Below, one piece after another: positions 2,486 to 19,029 of a DNA stretch of 21,085 nucleotides (position 1 is the first letter of the stretch; each line of letters opens with the position of its first letter). Made by a program: the position numbers and the translations under genes. Under the pieces are notes generated by a model, which was given only the letters and a program-made list of their open reading frames with translations, made no database searches and was not told the origin of the DNA. Source of the DNA: a virus; IMG/VR virus record IMGVR_UViG_3300020411_000528, positions 1 through 21,085 of that record. One strand, 5' to 3'.

Positions 2486-4735
2486 CTATAATGCGATTGC
2501 CATTGCTACTGCAAAGCCTTGAGTTGCTACATCAGCTGAATTTACTTTAACTGCAGGTGCATTAAAAGTTTTATTTACATTCCATGCATTATCTGAATTT
2601 GTGTAAGTAAATGTTGCGTCTGTATCACTTCCACAATCAACTGTAAGACCACCACCATTTGCAGCTGCTGCATTATTAGAACCTTTTGCAACTGTAATAT
2701 TCTTATCAGTTACATCTACTGTTGTAGAGTTTACTGTAGTTGTTGTACCATCTACTTGTAAATTTCCTTTTACTTGAACAGTTCCTGTATTATCACCTAC
2801 TGTAGCTGGGTCAATAACAAATGTAGCGGGACCTCTAAGTTCGCCAGCAATAGTTAAGTTATCACCTAAACTTACCGCATTACCAAAAGCATTTGTAATT
2901 CTACCATCAGCTCTTGCATTAGTATAGTATAAGTTTGAACTACCCTCAGATAAATCATCAGTATCATAAGCTGAAACAAATGTTACAAATGAAGAACCAT
3001 TATGTACTTTCATTTCATTATTAGCTGTATCATACCATAAATCACCTTCACCTACTGTACCACCTGTAGGAGCAGAGCTAGCTATAAAATAAGTATTAGC
3101 AAAAGTATTTACATTAGTTATATTTGTAGCAACTGTGTTAACGTTTGATATTGAACCACTAACTGTACTAACGTGAGATATATTTGATGCTACTGTATTA
3201 ACATTAGTTACTGCACCTGCAACAGTTGCAATATTTGCAATTACTCCTGTTCCATTTAAATTAGCCATGTTAGTTACATTAGTACTTGTACCAAGATTAC
3301 CCATAGCGGTTACATTTGCTGAAGTTCCTAATAAACCCATGTCAGTAACTACCGCACTTGTACCTAGTAATCCCATAGCTGTAACATTAGCACTTGTGCC
3401 TAAGTGACCCATCGCTGTAACATTAGCCGATGTTCCTAATAAATCCATATCGGTAACTACAGCACTTGTGCCTAATAAACCCATGTCTTCTACAACTGCA
3501 CTAGTACCTAATAATCCCATTGCTGTAACATTAGCACTTGTACCTAAATGACCCATGGCAGTTACATTAGCACTGGTACCTAATAAGCCCATATCCGTAA
3601 TAACAGAAGATACACCTAATAAACCTACTTCTGTAGCTTTACCTGCAACGGCTGTTACATCACTAGATATTCCTGCAACAGTAGTTACGTTACTAGATAC
3701 CCCTGCAACGGTAGTTACATTAGAAGCTATCCCAGCTACAGTAGTTACGTTTGATGCAACACCTGCAACAGTTGCTATATTTCCTACTACGCCTGATGCA
3801 CCAAGTGTAGCCATATTAGTTACATTTGCACTTGTACCTAACAATCCCATGTCTGTAACAACATCTGATACACCCAGTAATCCCATAGCAGTTACATTTG
3901 CTGAAGTTCCTAAATGACCCATTGCAGTTACGTTAGCTGAAGTTCCAAGATGTCCCATTGCAGTTACATTTGCAGAGGTTCCTAAAAATCCCATATCTTC
4001 AACAACTGCAGCAGTTCCAAGTAATCCCATATCTGTAACAACTGCGCTAGTACCTAATAATCCCATAGCAGTTACGTTAGCTGAAGTTCCTAAGTGACCC
4101 ATCGCTGTAACATTAGCGCTTGTGCCTAAGATGCCCATATCTGTAATAACATCAGCTACGCCTAGTAATCCTATCTCAGTAGCTTTGCCAGCCACTACTC
4201 CAATATCTGTTGCATCGGCAGCAACAGCAGTTACATCACTAGATATACCAGCTACAGTCGTTACATTACCATGTATTCCAGCTACTGTTGTAACATTAGA
4301 GGCTATACCTGAAACTGTATTTATATGTCCCTGCTCTGTTGTTGTAGGTTTAATTCTACTCCAAGCTGAACCTGTATAAGATTTTATTACATTATCCGAT
4401 GTATTCCAATAAAGTGCTCCCGTTAATAATGCATCTCCATCATTATCAACACTAGGATCGCTATTTTTATTTCCTAAATATCTATCATCAAAAGCATCAT
4501 AACTAGCTGCTGCACTTGCAGCTGAACTTGCAGCTGCCGTAGCTTGTTCAGTAGCTGTAGTTGCACTGGATGCTGCATTAGCGGCAGAAGTATTAGCTGC
4601 ATCTACATCAGCAGCTATAGTTCCTGCTAAGGTTTCTAAAACAACGGTATCGCCTGTATTAAACAAACCACCTTTTGATTCATCTGAAGTTGAACCGGTT
4701 TTATTTTGTGTATCTGGTGATGCTGGTGTTGCCAT
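2486..4735 (-). CDS. 749-aa repetitive fibre-like protein
   Basis: ATG 4735 overlaps the stop of the adaptor gene (TAATG). Residues 40-80 are Ala/Ser/Thr-rich and likely helical, followed by a fibre-type segment (YLGNKNSDPSVDNDGDALL, ALYWNTSDNVIKSYTGSAW, about 86-125). Residues 140-190 and 322-371 are ten-residue repeats of the SNVTTVAGI type. Residues 190-321 and 372-503 are two arrays of eleven 12-residue repeats of the LGTSANVTAMGH type. The C-terminal part contains LWYDTANNEMKVHNGSSF, SEGSSNLYYTNARADGRI and TTTTVNSTTVDVTDKNI, motifs seen in many environmental phage structural proteins. A long, rod-like, probably trimeric fibre or tail appendage is the inference. Length has probably evolved by repeat gain and loss. 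Confidence 0.8.
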   Translation of the reverse strand: MATPASPDTQNKTGSTSDESKGGLFNTGDTVVLETLAGTIAADVDAANTSAANAASSATTATEQATAAASSAASAAASYDAFDDRYLGNKNSDPSVDNDGDALLTGALYWNTSDNVIKSYTGSAWSRIKPTTTEQGHINTVSGIASNVTTVAGIHGNVTTVAGISSDVTAVAADATDIGVVAGKATEIGLLGVADVITDMGILGTSANVTAMGHLGTSANVTAMGLLGTSAVVTDMGLLGTAAVVEDMGFLGTSANVTAMGHLGTSANVTAMGHLGTSANVTAMGLLGVSDVVTDMGLLGTSANVTNMATLGASGVVGNIATVAGVASNVTTVAGIASNVTTVAGVSSNVTTVAGISSDVTAVAGKATEVGLLGVSSVITDMGLLGTSANVTAMGHLGTSANVTAMGLLGTSAVVEDMGLLGTSAVVTDMDLLGTSANVTAMGHLGTSANVTAMGLLGTSAVVTDMGLLGTSANVTAMGNLGTSTNVTNMANLNGTGVIANIATVAGAVTNVNTVASNISHVSTVSGSISNVNTVATNITNVNTFANTYFIASSAPTGGTVGEGDLWYDTANNEMKVHNGSSFVTFVSAYDTDDLSEGSSNLYYTNARADGRITNAFGNAVSLGDNLTIAGELRGPATFVIDPATVGDNTGTVQVKGNLQVDGTTTTVNSTTVDVTDKNITVAKGSNNAAAANGGGLTVDCGSDTDATFTYTNSDNAWNVNKTFNAPAVKVNSADVATQGFAVAMAIAL
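3227..3622 (-). repeat. Second array of eleven 36-bp (12-residue) repeats
   Basis: Codons 372-503 of the 749-aa protein encode eleven 12-residue units of consensus L-L-G-T-S-A-N-V-T-A-M-G, with variants A-V-V-T-D-M-G and a divergent final unit NLNGTGVIANIA. Units identical in protein differ at synonymous positions (for example GTAACATTAGC versus GTTACATTTGC on the plus strand), so the array is not a recent copy-paste product. Confidence 0.9.
3773..4168 (-). repeat. First array of eleven 36-bp (12-residue) repeats
   Basis: Codons 190-321 of the 749-aa protein encode eleven 12-residue units of the same type, from LLGVADVITDMG to the divergent end unit TLGASGVVGNIA. Both arrays have exactly eleven units and are preceded by ten-residue SNVTTVAG-type repeats and a KATE(I/V)G junction, so the larger segment seems to have been duplicated as a block. 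Confidence 0.9.
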
Positions 4736-9655: not shown

Positions 9656-10078
9656 TTAATTTATTTTGATTAATTTAGGTTTCTTTTCTTCTGGAACAAT
9701 CTTTTCCAGTTTGATAGTTAAAAGGCCATCTTCTAACTTTGCATCTTTAACTTCAATGTCATCTGCAATAGTAAACTCACGGGTAAACTTTCTATATGAT
9801 ATACCCTTATAAACGTTTTTAGTATTATGATCGTTTTCTTTTACAGATTTTATTTTTAATACATTTTCTGCAACTTCAACTTCAATATCTTCTTTACCGA
9901 AACCTGCAAGTGCCATTTCAATTCTAAAGTTATATTCATCTTCCTTCATAATATCATATGGAGGATATGTTTTAGTTACCCTTGAGCTATGTGCAAGCTG
10001 ATCAAATAAACGATCAAAGCCAACAGCATAAGGTGTTAATGTATTAAAGTGATCAAATAAAGTTAATGTTTGATTCAT
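9656..10078 (-). CDS. Small heat shock protein, Hsp20/IbpA-like
   Basis: This 140-aa alpha-crystallin-type chaperone has an N-terminus (TPYAVGFDRLFDQLAHSSRV, then YPPYDIMKEDEYNFRIEMAL) that parallels bacterial IbpA/IbpB, including the 'A-x-G-F-D-R-L-F' and 'YPPY' elements. The alpha-crystallin domain spans about 40-125, with AGFGKEDIEVEV and GLLTIKLEKIVPEEKKP, and the C-terminus LIKIN supplies the I-x-I anchoring motif. These proteins hold unfolding proteins for refolding by other chaperones. Hsp20 homologues are known in T4-like cyanophages. Here the gene lies inside the head cluster with AAGGAG at the start, so the phage may make it late, to protect virion proteins or host folding capacity. 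Confidence 0.93.
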   Translation of the reverse strand: MNQTLTLFDHFNTLTPYAVGFDRLFDQLAHSSRVTKTYPPYDIMKEDEYNFRIEMALAGFGKEDIEVEVAENVLKIKSVKENDHNTKNVYKGISYRKFTREFTIADDIEVKDAKLEDGLLTIKLEKIVPEEKKPKLIKIN

Positions 10079-16033: not shown

Positions 16034-17701
16034 TTAAAGCCATAGTGTGTTATCATTAGCGGGTATTGCTCCTGCTTTTTGAGACCATGGTACTTTATCT
16101 TTTGTTAACTTATCATAATGTGTTCTAAGAGTTTCTAAGGCAATAGCTGTAGCCATAATAGTATCATCATGACACCCAGGAGCAGCCTCAGTTCTTCCGG
16201 ATTCGGTACTAACATAATCTTTTAGTTCCTGTATAATTACTTTAGATCCTATCCATATATCATCATTTTCTACAGCATTCTTTAAATTACCTATAATATG
16301 AGGCTTAGTAACCTGTGTTGTTCTAAATCCAGGCACCTGACCTTCTTCTTTTGATATTGAAGAAATCTTTGTTTGTTTATATATATTTAAATAATTCATC
16401 TGCGCTAAACGCGATAAGGTTGCAACACCCATTGAATTACTTTCAACAGTTAGTAATGCATTGTTATAGTACCTACCAAGGTAAAACAACAAATCACCAA
16501 ACTTACTAGGGTCAATATAGCTGTCGCGATACAAAGCAATTACTTTCCTATCTGTATCCATAACAACAGCACAAGAATAATCCTGACCTACACCTAAAGC
16601 CACATCGGCAGCAAGTATAAAATTACTATCCCAATCAGGATACTCCCATATATCCAGGTGGCCATCTCTAGAATCCTCCCATGTTAATGAGTTAAAATCA
16701 AAAAGCATTTTCTTTTTAGGTTCAACTGCTATTAATTTATTTACTTTGTCCATCGCAAAGACAGACTTACCAGCTGTAATAAAAGCTTCATCGGGAGTTG
16801 CTGGGTATTCCTGGCGGAACTTTAGTTCCCCACCTTCAGCAATCTTCAACCGACGCCAGTAGAGTTGTCCGTTGTTTAAGTTGTGTTGCTCTACCAGTAG
16901 CTCCTCTTCTGAGGAACGTTCGAAACCTTCAGGTGGATCTCTATAGTATTCAGGCGTAGAGAACCACGGAAGGAATATCGGTAAATACTCATTCTCACCA
17001 TCCAGTGCACCTTTCCACAATCTGTAGAATTCACCTTGAGCGCCGTTAGCTGTTGACTCAAGTATGACTTCGGTACCTGGAGCTTCAGATATACCCTGGA
17101 ACAAACCAGCTAATATCTTTTCATCATGCTGCCAGAAGGCAACCTCTGATAAATGTGCAATCGTTGGTGTTGTACCACGACCTGCTTCAGGTGATCCTGC
17201 AGTATATAATCTATATGACGATATAGGTTTATCTTTACCTTCCTTTTTAAAGTGAGGTGAAGATATAACAATTTCTTTAGCATTCGATTTAATTTCATTT
17301 GGCTTATAGATAGTATTCATATTCTTAATAATATTCTTAGACAAATTAAATAATGCGTCAGATGTTGCACTGTCATGCGCCATAACAACTGAACGTGCGT
17401 GCGGAGTGAAATATGTTTTCCAGAATACTCTACCAGCACAGTAAGTACTAATACCTTGCTGTCTGGCTTTCAATATGATTGCTCTAACCTTTCCAGTGTC
17501 AGCCAGCTGTTTATCTAAAAGTTCTGTAATTTTTTCTTGGCAGCTGTTGAACTTAAAATCTATAAAGCCCCTTCTTGCATCCTTAGTAATGATCTTAATA
17601 TTGTCAGATGCAAAAGAAGTAAAGTTATTTTCGTAATCTTTTAATTTATTTCTTTTGTTCTTTTCTTCGAGAAGTCTTAATAATTCTTTATTCTTATTCA
17701 T
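16034..17701 (-). CDS. terL: Terminase large subunit
   Basis: This 555-aa packaging motor has an N-terminal ATPase with a variant Walker A KARQQGIST (residues 78-86), Walker B region IAHLSEVAFW (181-190, acidic residue E186) and coupling motif ESTANG (215-220). A C-terminal RNase H-like nuclease has ADVALGVGQDYS (Asp366), LLTVESNSMG (Glu420) and CHDDTIMATAIALE (Asp512/Asp513). All the catalytic parts look intact. It cuts concatemeric DNA and drives it into the prohead through the portal. The gene is first in the minus-strand block, with AGGAGAGG before its ATG. No small terminase subunit is recognisable beside it; one of the small basic genes or a gene outside the window might fill that role. 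Confidence 0.95.
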   Translation of the reverse strand: MNKNKELLRLLEEKNKRNKLKDYENNFTSFASDNIKIITKDARRGFIDFKFNSCQEKITELLDKQLADTGKVRAIILKARQQGISTYCAGRVFWKTYFTPHARSVVMAHDSATSDALFNLSKNIIKNMNTIYKPNEIKSNAKEIVISSPHFKKEGKDKPISSYRLYTAGSPEAGRGTTPTIAHLSEVAFWQHDEKILAGLFQGISEAPGTEVILESTANGAQGEFYRLWKGALDGENEYLPIFLPWFSTPEYYRDPPEGFERSSEEELLVEQHNLNNGQLYWRRLKIAEGGELKFRQEYPATPDEAFITAGKSVFAMDKVNKLIAVEPKKKMLFDFNSLTWEDSRDGHLDIWEYPDWDSNFILAADVALGVGQDYSCAVVMDTDRKVIALYRDSYIDPSKFGDLLFYLGRYYNNALLTVESNSMGVATLSRLAQMNYLNIYKQTKISSISKEEGQVPGFRTTQVTKPHIIGNLKNAVENDDIWIGSKVIIQELKDYVSTESGRTEAAPGCHDDTIMATAIALETLRTHYDKLTKDKVPWSQKAGAIPANDNTLWL

Positions 17702-17727
17702 AAAACCTCTCCTCGGATTAACTTTAA

Positions 17728-17753
17728 GGGGACATTTAAATTTAAACGTCTCC
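17728..17753. repeat. Inverted repeat upstream of terminase
   Basis: GGGGAC (17728-17733) pairs with GTCTCC (17748-17753), with one G-U pair; inside lie one mismatch and the palindrome TTTAAATTTAAA (17735-17746). There is no U-tract on either side, so it is more likely an operator-like or cruciform site or the terminase leader stem than a terminator. Confidence 0.45.
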
Positions 17754-17914
17754 TATAAGGGGGGATCTATATAATATATACTACCTTGAGGATAGATAAA
17801 TTTGTCTCAAAAAATGTGTTATACCCTAATATAATTCAACACCCCCTAAAAACCCCAAACACTCATTCTACTAACCATTCCTTTCTTATACCACCTACTC
17901 TCATACTAACTAAT

Positions 17915-17963
17915 AAAAATTTATTATCATAAATTTTTCAATACATTTAATTTAAACTATAAT
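17915..17963 (+). promoter_or_regulatory. Hairpin plus promoter of the G-less gene
   Basis: AAAAATTTAT (17915-17924) and ATAAATTTTT (17929-17938) form a perfect 10-bp inverted repeat with loop TATC. Its right arm runs into TTTTCA (17935-17940), a plausible -35, followed after exactly 17 nt by TATAAT (17958-17963). Transcription would begin near 17970, only about ten bases before the start codon. The hairpin and AAATTTTTC box recur before two other plus-strand genes. Confidence 0.65.
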
Positions 17964-17980
17964 AAATCACAGGAGACACT

Positions 17981-18493
17981 ATGTCCACATTTCAATATAA
18001 TAATTATAATAATAATTCTAATAACTACCAACAATATAATTCTAAAAATCCATTACAATTATTTTATAATCCATTATATAATCCACAACAATTTAATAAT
18101 TTATATAATTATATAAATCAACAACAAATATTATCATTATTAAAATCTAAACAAATTTCATTTAATTTCTTTTTCTTTAATAATCATAATACTTCAATAC
18201 ATTTATATAATAATAATATTTATAATAATATATCTAATATAAATCAATTTAATAATTTATATACATATATTAATACACCAAATATTACACAATTATTAAA
18301 TACACAACAATTAACAATTTATTATATAATTTATAATCCTACTACACATCAATTATATAATCAATTCTATAAAATTATTAATAAATCTATTAATACTTAT
18401 ACACCAAATAATATTAATAATATTAATAATCAACCTAATACATCACATAATAATTTTAACCAATTATTATCAACCCCAACACCAACTAAATAA
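17981..18493 (+). CDS. Asn/Gln/Tyr-rich protein encoded entirely without G codons
   Basis: This 170-aa ORF has a good AGGAG site, ATG start, double TAA stop, promoter before it and strong terminator behind it, so it is a complete expression unit. After Met, only the 11 amino acids with G-free codons are used (F, L, I, S, P, T, Y, H, Q, N, K); there is no Gly, Ala, Val, Asp, Glu, Arg, Trp, Cys or internal Met. Asn makes up 45 of 170 residues, Lys only six. Residues 37-88 and 89-138 are a tandem duplication (QFNNLYNYIN... and QFNNLYTYIN...), implying a real domain. Fold and function are unrecognised; it resembles prion-like N/Q-rich sequences only in composition. It could be a protein made when GTP is scarce or a message that must lack G. 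Confidence 0.75.
   Translation: MSTFQYNNYNNNSNNYQQYNSKNPLQLFYNPLYNPQQFNNLYNYINQQQILSLLKSKQISFNFFFFNNHNTSIHLYNNNIYNNISNINQFNNLYTYINTPNITQLLNTQQLTIYYIIYNPTTHQLYNQFYKIINKSINTYTPNNINNINNQPNTSHNNFNQLLSTPTPTK
18089..18394 (+). repeat. Diverged tandem duplication inside the G-less ORF
   Basis: Codons 37-88 and 89-138 align: QFNNLY-x-YIN-xxx-I-xx-LL-xxx-Q is identical at 14 of the first 22 positions, hydrophobic positions continue to match through the FNFFFF / YYIIY strand, and LYN recurs after a two-residue gap. The copies have diverged in sequence but both remain G-free. Confidence 0.8.
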
Positions 18494-18499
18494 TAACAG

Positions 18500-18521
18500 G
18501 AGACCCTTCGGGGTCTCTTTT
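18500..18521 (+). terminator. Intrinsic terminator with UUCG loop after the G-less gene
   Basis: GAGACCC (18500-18506) pairs perfectly with GGGTCTC (18511-18517) around the extra-stable tetraloop TTCG, followed by TTTT. It begins within a few bases of the double stop codon and is the first place after the start codon where G occurs. Confidence 0.92.
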
Positions 18522-18528
18522 AAAATTT

Positions 18529-18660
18529 GCACCGGCATCCTTTAGTGCGTGTAGATCTCGTAGTACTGTCAGAATCCTAACAATGAAGTTTACTTGGAGT
18601 TATTCTGTCAGAATTCCGACGATACTACCGACGTCCTATCTCTCAGTGCTATCAGATCTC
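18529..18660 (+). ncRNA. Candidate structured RNA in a gene-free interval
   Basis: The 275 bp between the terminator and the zinc-finger gene contain no supported gene. The part 18531-18670 is about 43% GC by my count, higher than its surroundings. A long-range helix pairs 18553-18558 (AGATCT) with 18654-18659 and 18561-18568 (TAGTACTG) with 18644-18651 (CAGTGCTA, one G-U), with a 2x2 internal loop. Inside it, CAGAAT (18570-18575) pairs with ATTCTG (18602-18607), and AAC (18579-18581) with GTT (18599-18601). A third short stem is GACG (18618-18621) with CGTC (18632-18635). The promoter for such an RNA is not evident. The folding was done by eye. Confidence 0.4.
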
Positions 18661-18708: not shown

Positions 18709-18751
18709 AAAATTTATTATCATAAATTTTTCCATACTATTTTCTTTTAAT
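18709..18751 (+). promoter_or_regulatory. Second copy of hairpin/AAATTTTTC promoter element
   Basis: AAAATTTAT (18709-18717) and ATAAATTTT (18722-18730) form a 9-bp inverted repeat with the same TATC loop as the copy at 17915. It is followed by AAATTTTTCC, ATACTATTTTC and a weak -10-like TTTAAT (18746-18751). The start codon of the zinc-finger gene is 17 nt further on, again giving a very short leader. Confidence 0.6.
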
Positions 18752-18768: not shown

Positions 18769-19029
18769 ATGCAAAAAGAAACATTCAGTCTACGTGACAA
18801 TAAGACACTTAAATATCTCAGAAGTAACATGAGCTACGAAGAAGCCGCAGCTCTCAGAGATTCCAAAGAACCTGTCGCATCTCATAACTATGTAGATTAT
18901 AAATATGAGATCTTATCAGATCAATATGTGTGTGATAACTGTCATCATCCCGAAGACTTTCCACATCATACTTGTGCAATTAAATATGATTATGTAAGAG
19001 TATGTGATTATTGTCATAGAGAATGCTAA
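18769..19029 (+). CDS. Small zinc-finger-like protein
   Basis: This 86-aa protein has CGGAG five nucleotides before its ATG. The N-terminal half is helical and charged (MQKETFSLRDNKTLKYLRSN, MSYEEAAALRD). The C-terminus has CDNCHH (Cys55, Cys58), Cys69 with flanking histidines, and CDYCHREC (Cys79, Cys82, Cys86), the spacing of a treble-clef or zinc-ribbon type metal site. In early phage genes such proteins often bind DNA, RNA or host polymerase; which one applies is unknown. The gene's stop overlaps the next start (TAATG). Confidence 0.75.
   Translation: MQKETFSLRDNKTLKYLRSNMSYEEAAALRDSKEPVASHNYVDYKYEILSDQYVCDNCHHPEDFPHHTCAIKYDYVRVCDYCHREC

Follow-up and report, generated by a model that had tools for sequence, protein, structure and literature searches.

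Can selection remove a single base from an entire viral gene and its untranslated leader, and if so, what makes that base harmful? The question is raised by a locus in a 21-kb fragment of IMG/VR (IMGVR_UViG_3300020411_000528, positions 1 to 21,085; hereafter the window, meaning the whole stretch of 21,085 nucleotides that was analysed), which carries SU10-type portal and major capsid genes. On direct reading, G occurs between positions 17819 and 18498 solely at 17972, 17973, 17975 and 17983. A preliminary description of this DNA had placed every G of the segment in the Shine-Dalgarno (SD) sequence and the start codon, and the repeated count (A312 C116 G4 T248; A share of the coding strand, 46%) proved it exact. 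Full-text searches of openly licensed papers turned up no description of a natural gene, or of a phage unit, that lacks guanine. In the G-less cassette used for in-vitro transcription, a transcript without G needs no GTP; the omission of G is alike in both cases, whereas the cassette is artificial and non-coding and the phage unit is natural, coding and under selection.

Composition and borders of the G-free unit

The uninterrupted G-free runs extend over 17819-17971 (153 nt) and 17984-18498 (515 nt). Among 300 sequences simulated from the window with a first-order Markov model, the longest G-free run had a median of 51 and a maximum of 80 nt against the actual 515, which rules out a chance origin of the zone. 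With the amino acids held fixed, a G-containing synonym is possible at 74 codons of the open reading frame (ORF); about 9.3 G-containing codons are expected from early-gene usage and none is observed (P about 10^-4.7), and after the start Met all residues (169/169) are encodable without G. Codon bias alone was rejected, as leaders and synonymous sites both follow the G-free rule. The synonymous-codon test thus bears out the earlier suggestion that the constraint acts on nucleic acid.

The features of the locus are collected in Table 1. The G-free zone runs from the element TATACCC-(-10-like)-ACCCCCT to the terminator and is flanked by ordinary G on both sides; the first G is at 18499, and ordinary G content returns at the terminator. 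Within the element, a -10-like TATAAT occupies 17830-17835 and the predicted transcription start is A17841; it is a putative promoter directed into the unit. A reading of the element as a late promoter from which the phage polymerase would transcribe the opposite strand is less favoured: AU-only RNA structures that are conserved, together with the terminators, speak for transcription of the early strand across the unit.

Table 1. Features around the G-free unit of the window, with strand and basis of assignment.
Feature	Position	Strand	Basis or remark
terL, terminase large subunit, divergent late gene	16034..17701	-	62% identity to terL of Roseobacter phage CRP-7
Intergenic region between terL and G-free unit, ordinary G, conserved inverted repeat GGGGACATTTAAATTTAAACGTCTCC	17702..17819	.	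conserved upstream of relatives' terL
Promoter-like element TATACCC-TAA-TATAAT-TCAACACCCCCT	17820..17847	+	single copy per genome; spacing fixed, or nearly so, among relatives
G-free 5' leader	17841..17971	+	base count
AU-only hairpin AAATTTATTATCATAAATTTTTC, terminator- or attenuator-like	17917..17939	+	equivalents in L005, L010, L119
Shine-Dalgarno GGAG, three of the unit's four G	17972..17975	+	direct reading
ORF of 170 codons, G-free past ATG, ending TAA TAA	17981..18493	+	
Terminator hairpin GAGACCC-TTCG-GGGTCTC followed by TTTT	18500..18521	+	direct reading; scan listed the stem on the minus strand
Next early gene, small Cys/His-rich protein, ordinary composition	18769..19029	+	relatives in L005, L010, L002, L037

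Conserved RNA made of A-U pairs only was found in the leaders or trailers of the related units L005, L010, L011, L031, L032, L119 (two copies), L134 and L137, and 8 of the 19 predicted pairs have changed on both sides with pairing kept. It can be deduced from this covariation that structure is kept and G alone is excluded. Selection for unstructured RNA was accordingly rejected, and with it the earlier idea of a structure-avoiding RNA, which the conserved AU-only hairpins of the relatives' units contradict. A search of Rfam gave no match in the window or the units, and counts of G in terminator-like hairpins inside versus outside the units were uninformative. The hairpin of the window recurs at 18710-18732, ahead of the following gene; each phage seems to possess a private hairpin of its own, repeated before several early genes (AAATTTATTATCATAAATTTTTC in the window, AAAAATAATTATTCAATTATTTTT in L119). 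Ahead of the second early gene, a conserved block GTTTACTTGGAGTTATTCTGTCAGAATTCCGACG...GTCC spans 18586-18640 of the window, and the relatives' version of it contains a perfect, operator-like palindrome, TGTCAGAATTCTGACA.

Relatives of the unit and the action of selection

A protein search with the window ORF alone found nothing, and family members were reached through terL, which served as the anchor for locating relatives (referred to here by L numbers), together with the promoter-like element; the two kinds of search yielded about 120 contigs. The G share was scored over the 500 nt that follow the element at 36 non-redundant loci. It was at most 6% at 26 of the 36, including 15 at or below 2.5%, and 13-28% at the remaining 10, these counts being approximate because contigs L125/L145 and L128 each entered at two neighbouring anchor positions. 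The preliminary description had held that a gene of ordinary composition here in related phages would speak against its reading, and at these 26 loci the composition is far from ordinary. In the first 100 nt, G is zero or near-zero in almost all relatives. The most distant members of this set share about 60% terL identity with the window; the terL of L115 and L119 is only 59-62% identical to that of the window, and CRP-7 is equally distant.

The individual units are 956 nt with 6 G in L010, 833 nt with 7 G in L005, 1072 nt with 5 G in L115 (L113 being alike) and 721 nt with 3 G in L032, while L119 (1047 nt) and L141 (603 nt) have zero G. Absence of G at positions free to vary is strict in the window, L002, L005, L010, L032, L113, L115 and L119 and relaxed in L001 and L014. 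The 3' untranslated parts are likewise G-free in L005, L010, L115 and L119. In the looser members L001, L014 and L037, the G of the ORF lies mostly in the 3' part, and the ORF of L001 tolerates 15 G. Phage isolates, searched at both the DNA and the protein level, gave no match for the unit, and its carriers are metagenome contigs only.

Throughout the family, the unit is the first early-strand gene, divergent from terL and behind the TATACCC..ACCCCCT element. Its occupant varies: L003, L012 and L013, with terL 90-96% identical, retain a short G-poor leader only and then carry other genes, so the first-gene locus is exchangeable. Some of the first genes found here are unrelated to the family and yet G-poor (L061, with 6 G in 255 nt, L112 and L021), which indicates that the rule belongs to the transcript and not to one protein. 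Upstream of terL in L003, L012 and L013, the G-free gene is replaced by G-rich DNA (GGTAGGAGGAGGGTGGCATCC..., GACCTGAGCATGTCGTTAAACTGCT...), probably structured and non-coding, and a gene for a SLOG-like (GGRDF) protein. At the same position in L068 lies a collagen-like, Gly-Pro-rich repeat gene on the opposite strand.

Between the ORFs of the window and L005, none of 117 differences involves G, whereas 46 of 116 do so when the nearby ssb genes of these two phages are compared. The other ORF pairs agree (window/L010, 0/105; L113/L115, 0/104; L134/L137, 0/39). When dN/dS is counted over A, C and T alone, most values fall at 0.15-0.6 and the highest is 0.86, with 0.45-0.46 for the window ORF against L005 and L010 and 0.33-0.47 for L141 against L134, L137, L189 and L190; the ORF is therefore kept as a protein. 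Taken together, purifying selection is shown to strip guanosine from the whole unit, from promoter-like start to terminator, with protein-level selection alongside. Selection is directed against guanosine in the transcript or, equivalently, cytosine in the template. These substitutions, and borders that fall at the promoter-like element and the terminator, lend support to the earlier proposal of a unit selected for expression as a nearly G-free mRNA.

The carriers form a clade of short-tailed marine phages with SU10-type head genes and a CRP-7-like terL, in which the G-free unit adjoins terL divergently and heads the early strand. In L005, an apparently complete genome of 58,008 bp, the early strand that it heads carries ssb, the thymidylate-synthase homologue, DNA polymerase, primase-helicase, dCMP deaminase and a T7-like RNA polymerase, where polymerase, primase and RNA polymerase were named by sequence likeness to the CRP-7 annotation. 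A 280-nt exact terminal direct repeat is present immediately upstream of terL in G016 (L077; L192:1-280, L193:3473-3752), which points to linear genomes whose early genes are located at one terminus. As this repeat occupies the same place, the G-free locus is probably at a genome end, and region 17702..17819 is the probable site of the terminal repeat, the end in the window being placed from G016.

Translation initiation and the encoded protein

The preliminary description had regarded the four exceptions as exactly the bases needed for initiation. This is correct in the window but does not extend to relatives with ATG only (L134/L137) or not even ATG (L119/L141). GGAG and ATG are both retained in the window, L005 and L010. 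The SD is absent in L134, L137, L139, L142 and L189, where the G of the start codon is the sole G at the initiation site. In L119 and L141 the homologous start is ATA and ATC, respectively, and the SD is likewise absent. Loss of G from the initiation site is thus graded, up to complete removal, and the series from GGAG with ATG, through ATG only (L134, L137), to none (L119, L141) indicates a cost for each single G.

The ATA and ATC starts of L119 and L141 are preceded by a conserved leader, ACATCTAATAAATTAATATATA, and L190 has this leader with ATGAG. The 22-nt ACATCTAATAAATTAATATATA stands a few bases before the SD-less starts (L119:1219-1240, L141, L134, L137, L189) and is non-coding, as it occurs in different frames. 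It is possibly a G-free ribosome entry element, and the AUA and AUC codons would be used as starts given that the ORF is open, homologous and selected.

Besides its start Met, the window protein draws on 11 amino acids, with Gly, Ala, Asp, Glu, Val, Arg, Cys, Trp and internal Met absent. Its core is duplicated (about 18062-18205 and 18224-18391), and alignments show a family core NP(L/I)YN..Q ... Y(I/L) ... IN..L common to the relatives and the window protein. AlphaFold2 modelled core residues 28-137 with a pLDDT of about 88, though the whole model is weak (pTM 0.59); the model of the short relatives was too weak for use (pLDDT 53.7). Pfam and PHROG gave no match for the protein of the G-free ORF, and Foldseek against PDB and BFVD, with a model usable in the core only, gave no convincing fold match (all E > 0.1). 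From position, size and exchangeability, we infer a small host-takeover or counter-defence protein.

First-expressed anti-restriction genes such as T7 gene 0.3 (ocr), the latter of ordinary base composition, occupy the leading end of short-tailed phage genomes. The G-free gene resembles them as a small, exchangeable first early gene beside a probable genome end. It differs in its composition, and the searches of Pfam, PHROG and Foldseek placed it neither by homology nor by fold with T7 0.3/ocr.

Candidate reasons for the exclusion of guanosine

The observations suggest that G in the message of this unit is dangerous during infection. Guanosine in the RNA and cytosine in the template are indistinguishable from sequence, and a modified template cytosine, a GTP analogue and a G-specific RNase all fit the exclusion of G. 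The unit is best read as an accessory first-expressed gene, and the explanation we tentatively prefer is a first-expressed, exchangeable early unit whose mRNA is made at a time when placement of G into RNA is a weak step. At every G the polymerase would stall or release the RNA, so that each G would cut the yield of full-length message and be selected away, even from the ribosome site and the start codon. A hazard in RNA synthesis would fit best owing to the cost per G, the independence of context, the transcription-unit borders and the 3' tolerance of looser members, the 3' bias of G in the ORFs of L001, L014 and L037 being what a chain-ending hazard would be expected to leave. Counting against this explanation, the next early genes have ordinary G yet need transcription, and an ordinary first gene is present in 10 of 36 relatives. 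The broader proposition, that a natural coding unit omits one nucleotide for expression when guanosine incorporation fails, as a counter-defence or early-expression strategy, is likewise tentative and held only marginally more firmly.

Two causes of such a weak step can be envisaged, of which the first is ranked slightly above the second: bulky modified cytosines in the phage template may slow GTP incorporation by the host polymerase, or the host may supply chain-terminating or scarce GTP. With respect to the first, wherever a thymidylate-synthase-family enzyme was found in relatives of the two close clades, it has Asp at Ec177. The Asp form was seen in L005, L001, L012, L013, L015, L019, L025, L045, L130, L133, L134 and L135; the region concerned lies outside the window's own contig. 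The L005 homologue (L175; L005 19836-20648, minus strand) reads PSD for PFN, with Asp at the substrate position. L005 also carries PRA-PH(-like) and dCMP deaminase genes near it, all among its early genes, and passages of PMC8670742 describe this set, with an Asp177 thymidylate-synthase homologue, for modified-cytosine contigs and phages. From gene content, modified-cytosine DNA is probable in the clade of L005. The same passages of PMC8670742 do not describe a G-free transcription unit. One modified cytosine, 5-carboxylcytosine, has been reported to pause RNA polymerase II (PMC8191312). The first cause is weakened by L012, L013 and L135, which have the Asp enzyme yet an ordinary first gene, and by L045, in which the enzyme is present and the G-free leader absent.

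With respect to the second cause, bacterial viperins produce ddhGTP, an RNA chain terminator (PMC10732462, PMC12926258), and thus represent a defence acting at single nucleotides in RNA synthesis that could in principle be evaded by base omission; no report of a phage answering viperin in this manner was found in the literature searched. Viperin was found in 0 of 136 genomes of the SAR116 order, which holds the best chromosomal PstS match (a host guess only), and in 0 of 247 genomes from the order to which a Pelagibacter bin belongs, likewise a guessed host, while a control search of 385 genomes of the class placed 3 above the cut-off. The lack of viperins in the two candidate host orders weakens the second cause, which also needs an extra assumption if the host polymerase, tolerated in viperin hosts, transcribes the first gene.

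Among the alternatives, a G-specific endoribonuclease, either a host abortive-infection toxin or phage-encoded, could cut single-stranded RNA so that a G-free inhibitor mRNA survives and is translated. The cost per G would follow, as would the G-free 3' untranslated parts, and the G exceptions (SD, start codon, terminator stems) are paired in use. We nevertheless consider it unlikely, because rRNA, tRNA and other phage mRNA would be destroyed too, 15 G are tolerated in the L001 ORF, and a guanosine-specific anti-phage RNase is not evident in the top ten titles and abstracts of the literature search. Somewhat more doubtful still is a DNA-level cause, in which terminal DNA avoids double-strand sites (of restriction, a modification-dependent nuclease or primase) or forms a strand-asymmetric origin, the ORF being incidental. 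The terminal position of the locus agrees with this, a G-free strand confines cytosine to one strand, and no palindrome in the unit contains G, whereas the flanks have 18 and 22 such palindromes of four bases. The restriction idea of the preliminary description is upheld to that extent and falls short at the start codon, whose loss of G multi-base sites leave unexplained. The borders are moreover a promoter-like element and a terminator, with no fixed length, and the origin or R-loop idea of the preliminary description gains little from a zone that follows a transcription unit. C is not depleted 21-23 nt before residual G, contrary to a PvuRts1I-like two-strand site; a two-strand modified-cytosine nuclease with a spacing of about 22 nt is hence unsupported.

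Leader and ORF might instead form one long C-over-G loading site for Rho, for attenuation or Rho titration, as the C-rich, G-free leaders of L061, L002 and L003 would allow. A Rho site should be C-rich, G-poor and unstructured, and the ORFs of the window, L005 and L010 are G-poor but with just 14-16% C, with AU hairpins conserved inside the unit; total loss of G, SD and ATG is not required by Rho either, and this account is improbable. A mutational origin, strand-specific cytosine deamination emptying the template strand of C, would agree with the G-free, A-rich coding strand of the window, yet it is very improbable: the L002 ORF has 36% C and no G after ATG, which precludes a simple G-to-A change, the zone takes in the unit as a whole and stops abruptly, and C often differs from T where no difference involves G. 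An assembly or sequencing artefact, conceivable insofar as the unit is known from metagenome contigs and no isolate, is of negligible probability, being refuted by the presence of the unit, with ORFs that have diverged and are under selection, in dozens of contigs that stem from different samples.

If selection can strip one base from a whole mRNA, as far as the start codon, infection must include a step that senses individual nucleotides; identifying it would bring to light a new host defence, a hidden cost of modified phage DNA or a new way for translation to start. Natural folded proteins from 11 amino acids provide a test of the minimal folding alphabet, and G-free units also supply natural AU-only structured RNAs.

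The closest isolate by terL is Roseobacter phage CRP-7 (MK613349; 62%), in which no G-free or C-free stretch and no Asp thymidylate-synthase homologue were found; its early module includes a T7-like RNA polymerase (PMC6918029). The nearest chromosomal relatives of the L005 PstS are in SAR116 bins, and SAR116 is our guess for the host from this protein. The L005 pstS (L108:10034-11062; L154) is 99% identical to a pstS from the bin Candidatus Pelagibacter MED605, carried there on a contig of 15.6 kb that is perhaps a mis-binned phage contig. Elsewhere in the window, a tail-type protein with many LGTSANVTAMG-like repeats is encoded at 2486-4735 (minus strand), and an Hsp20-type small heat shock gene lies among the structural genes at 9656-10078 (minus strand).
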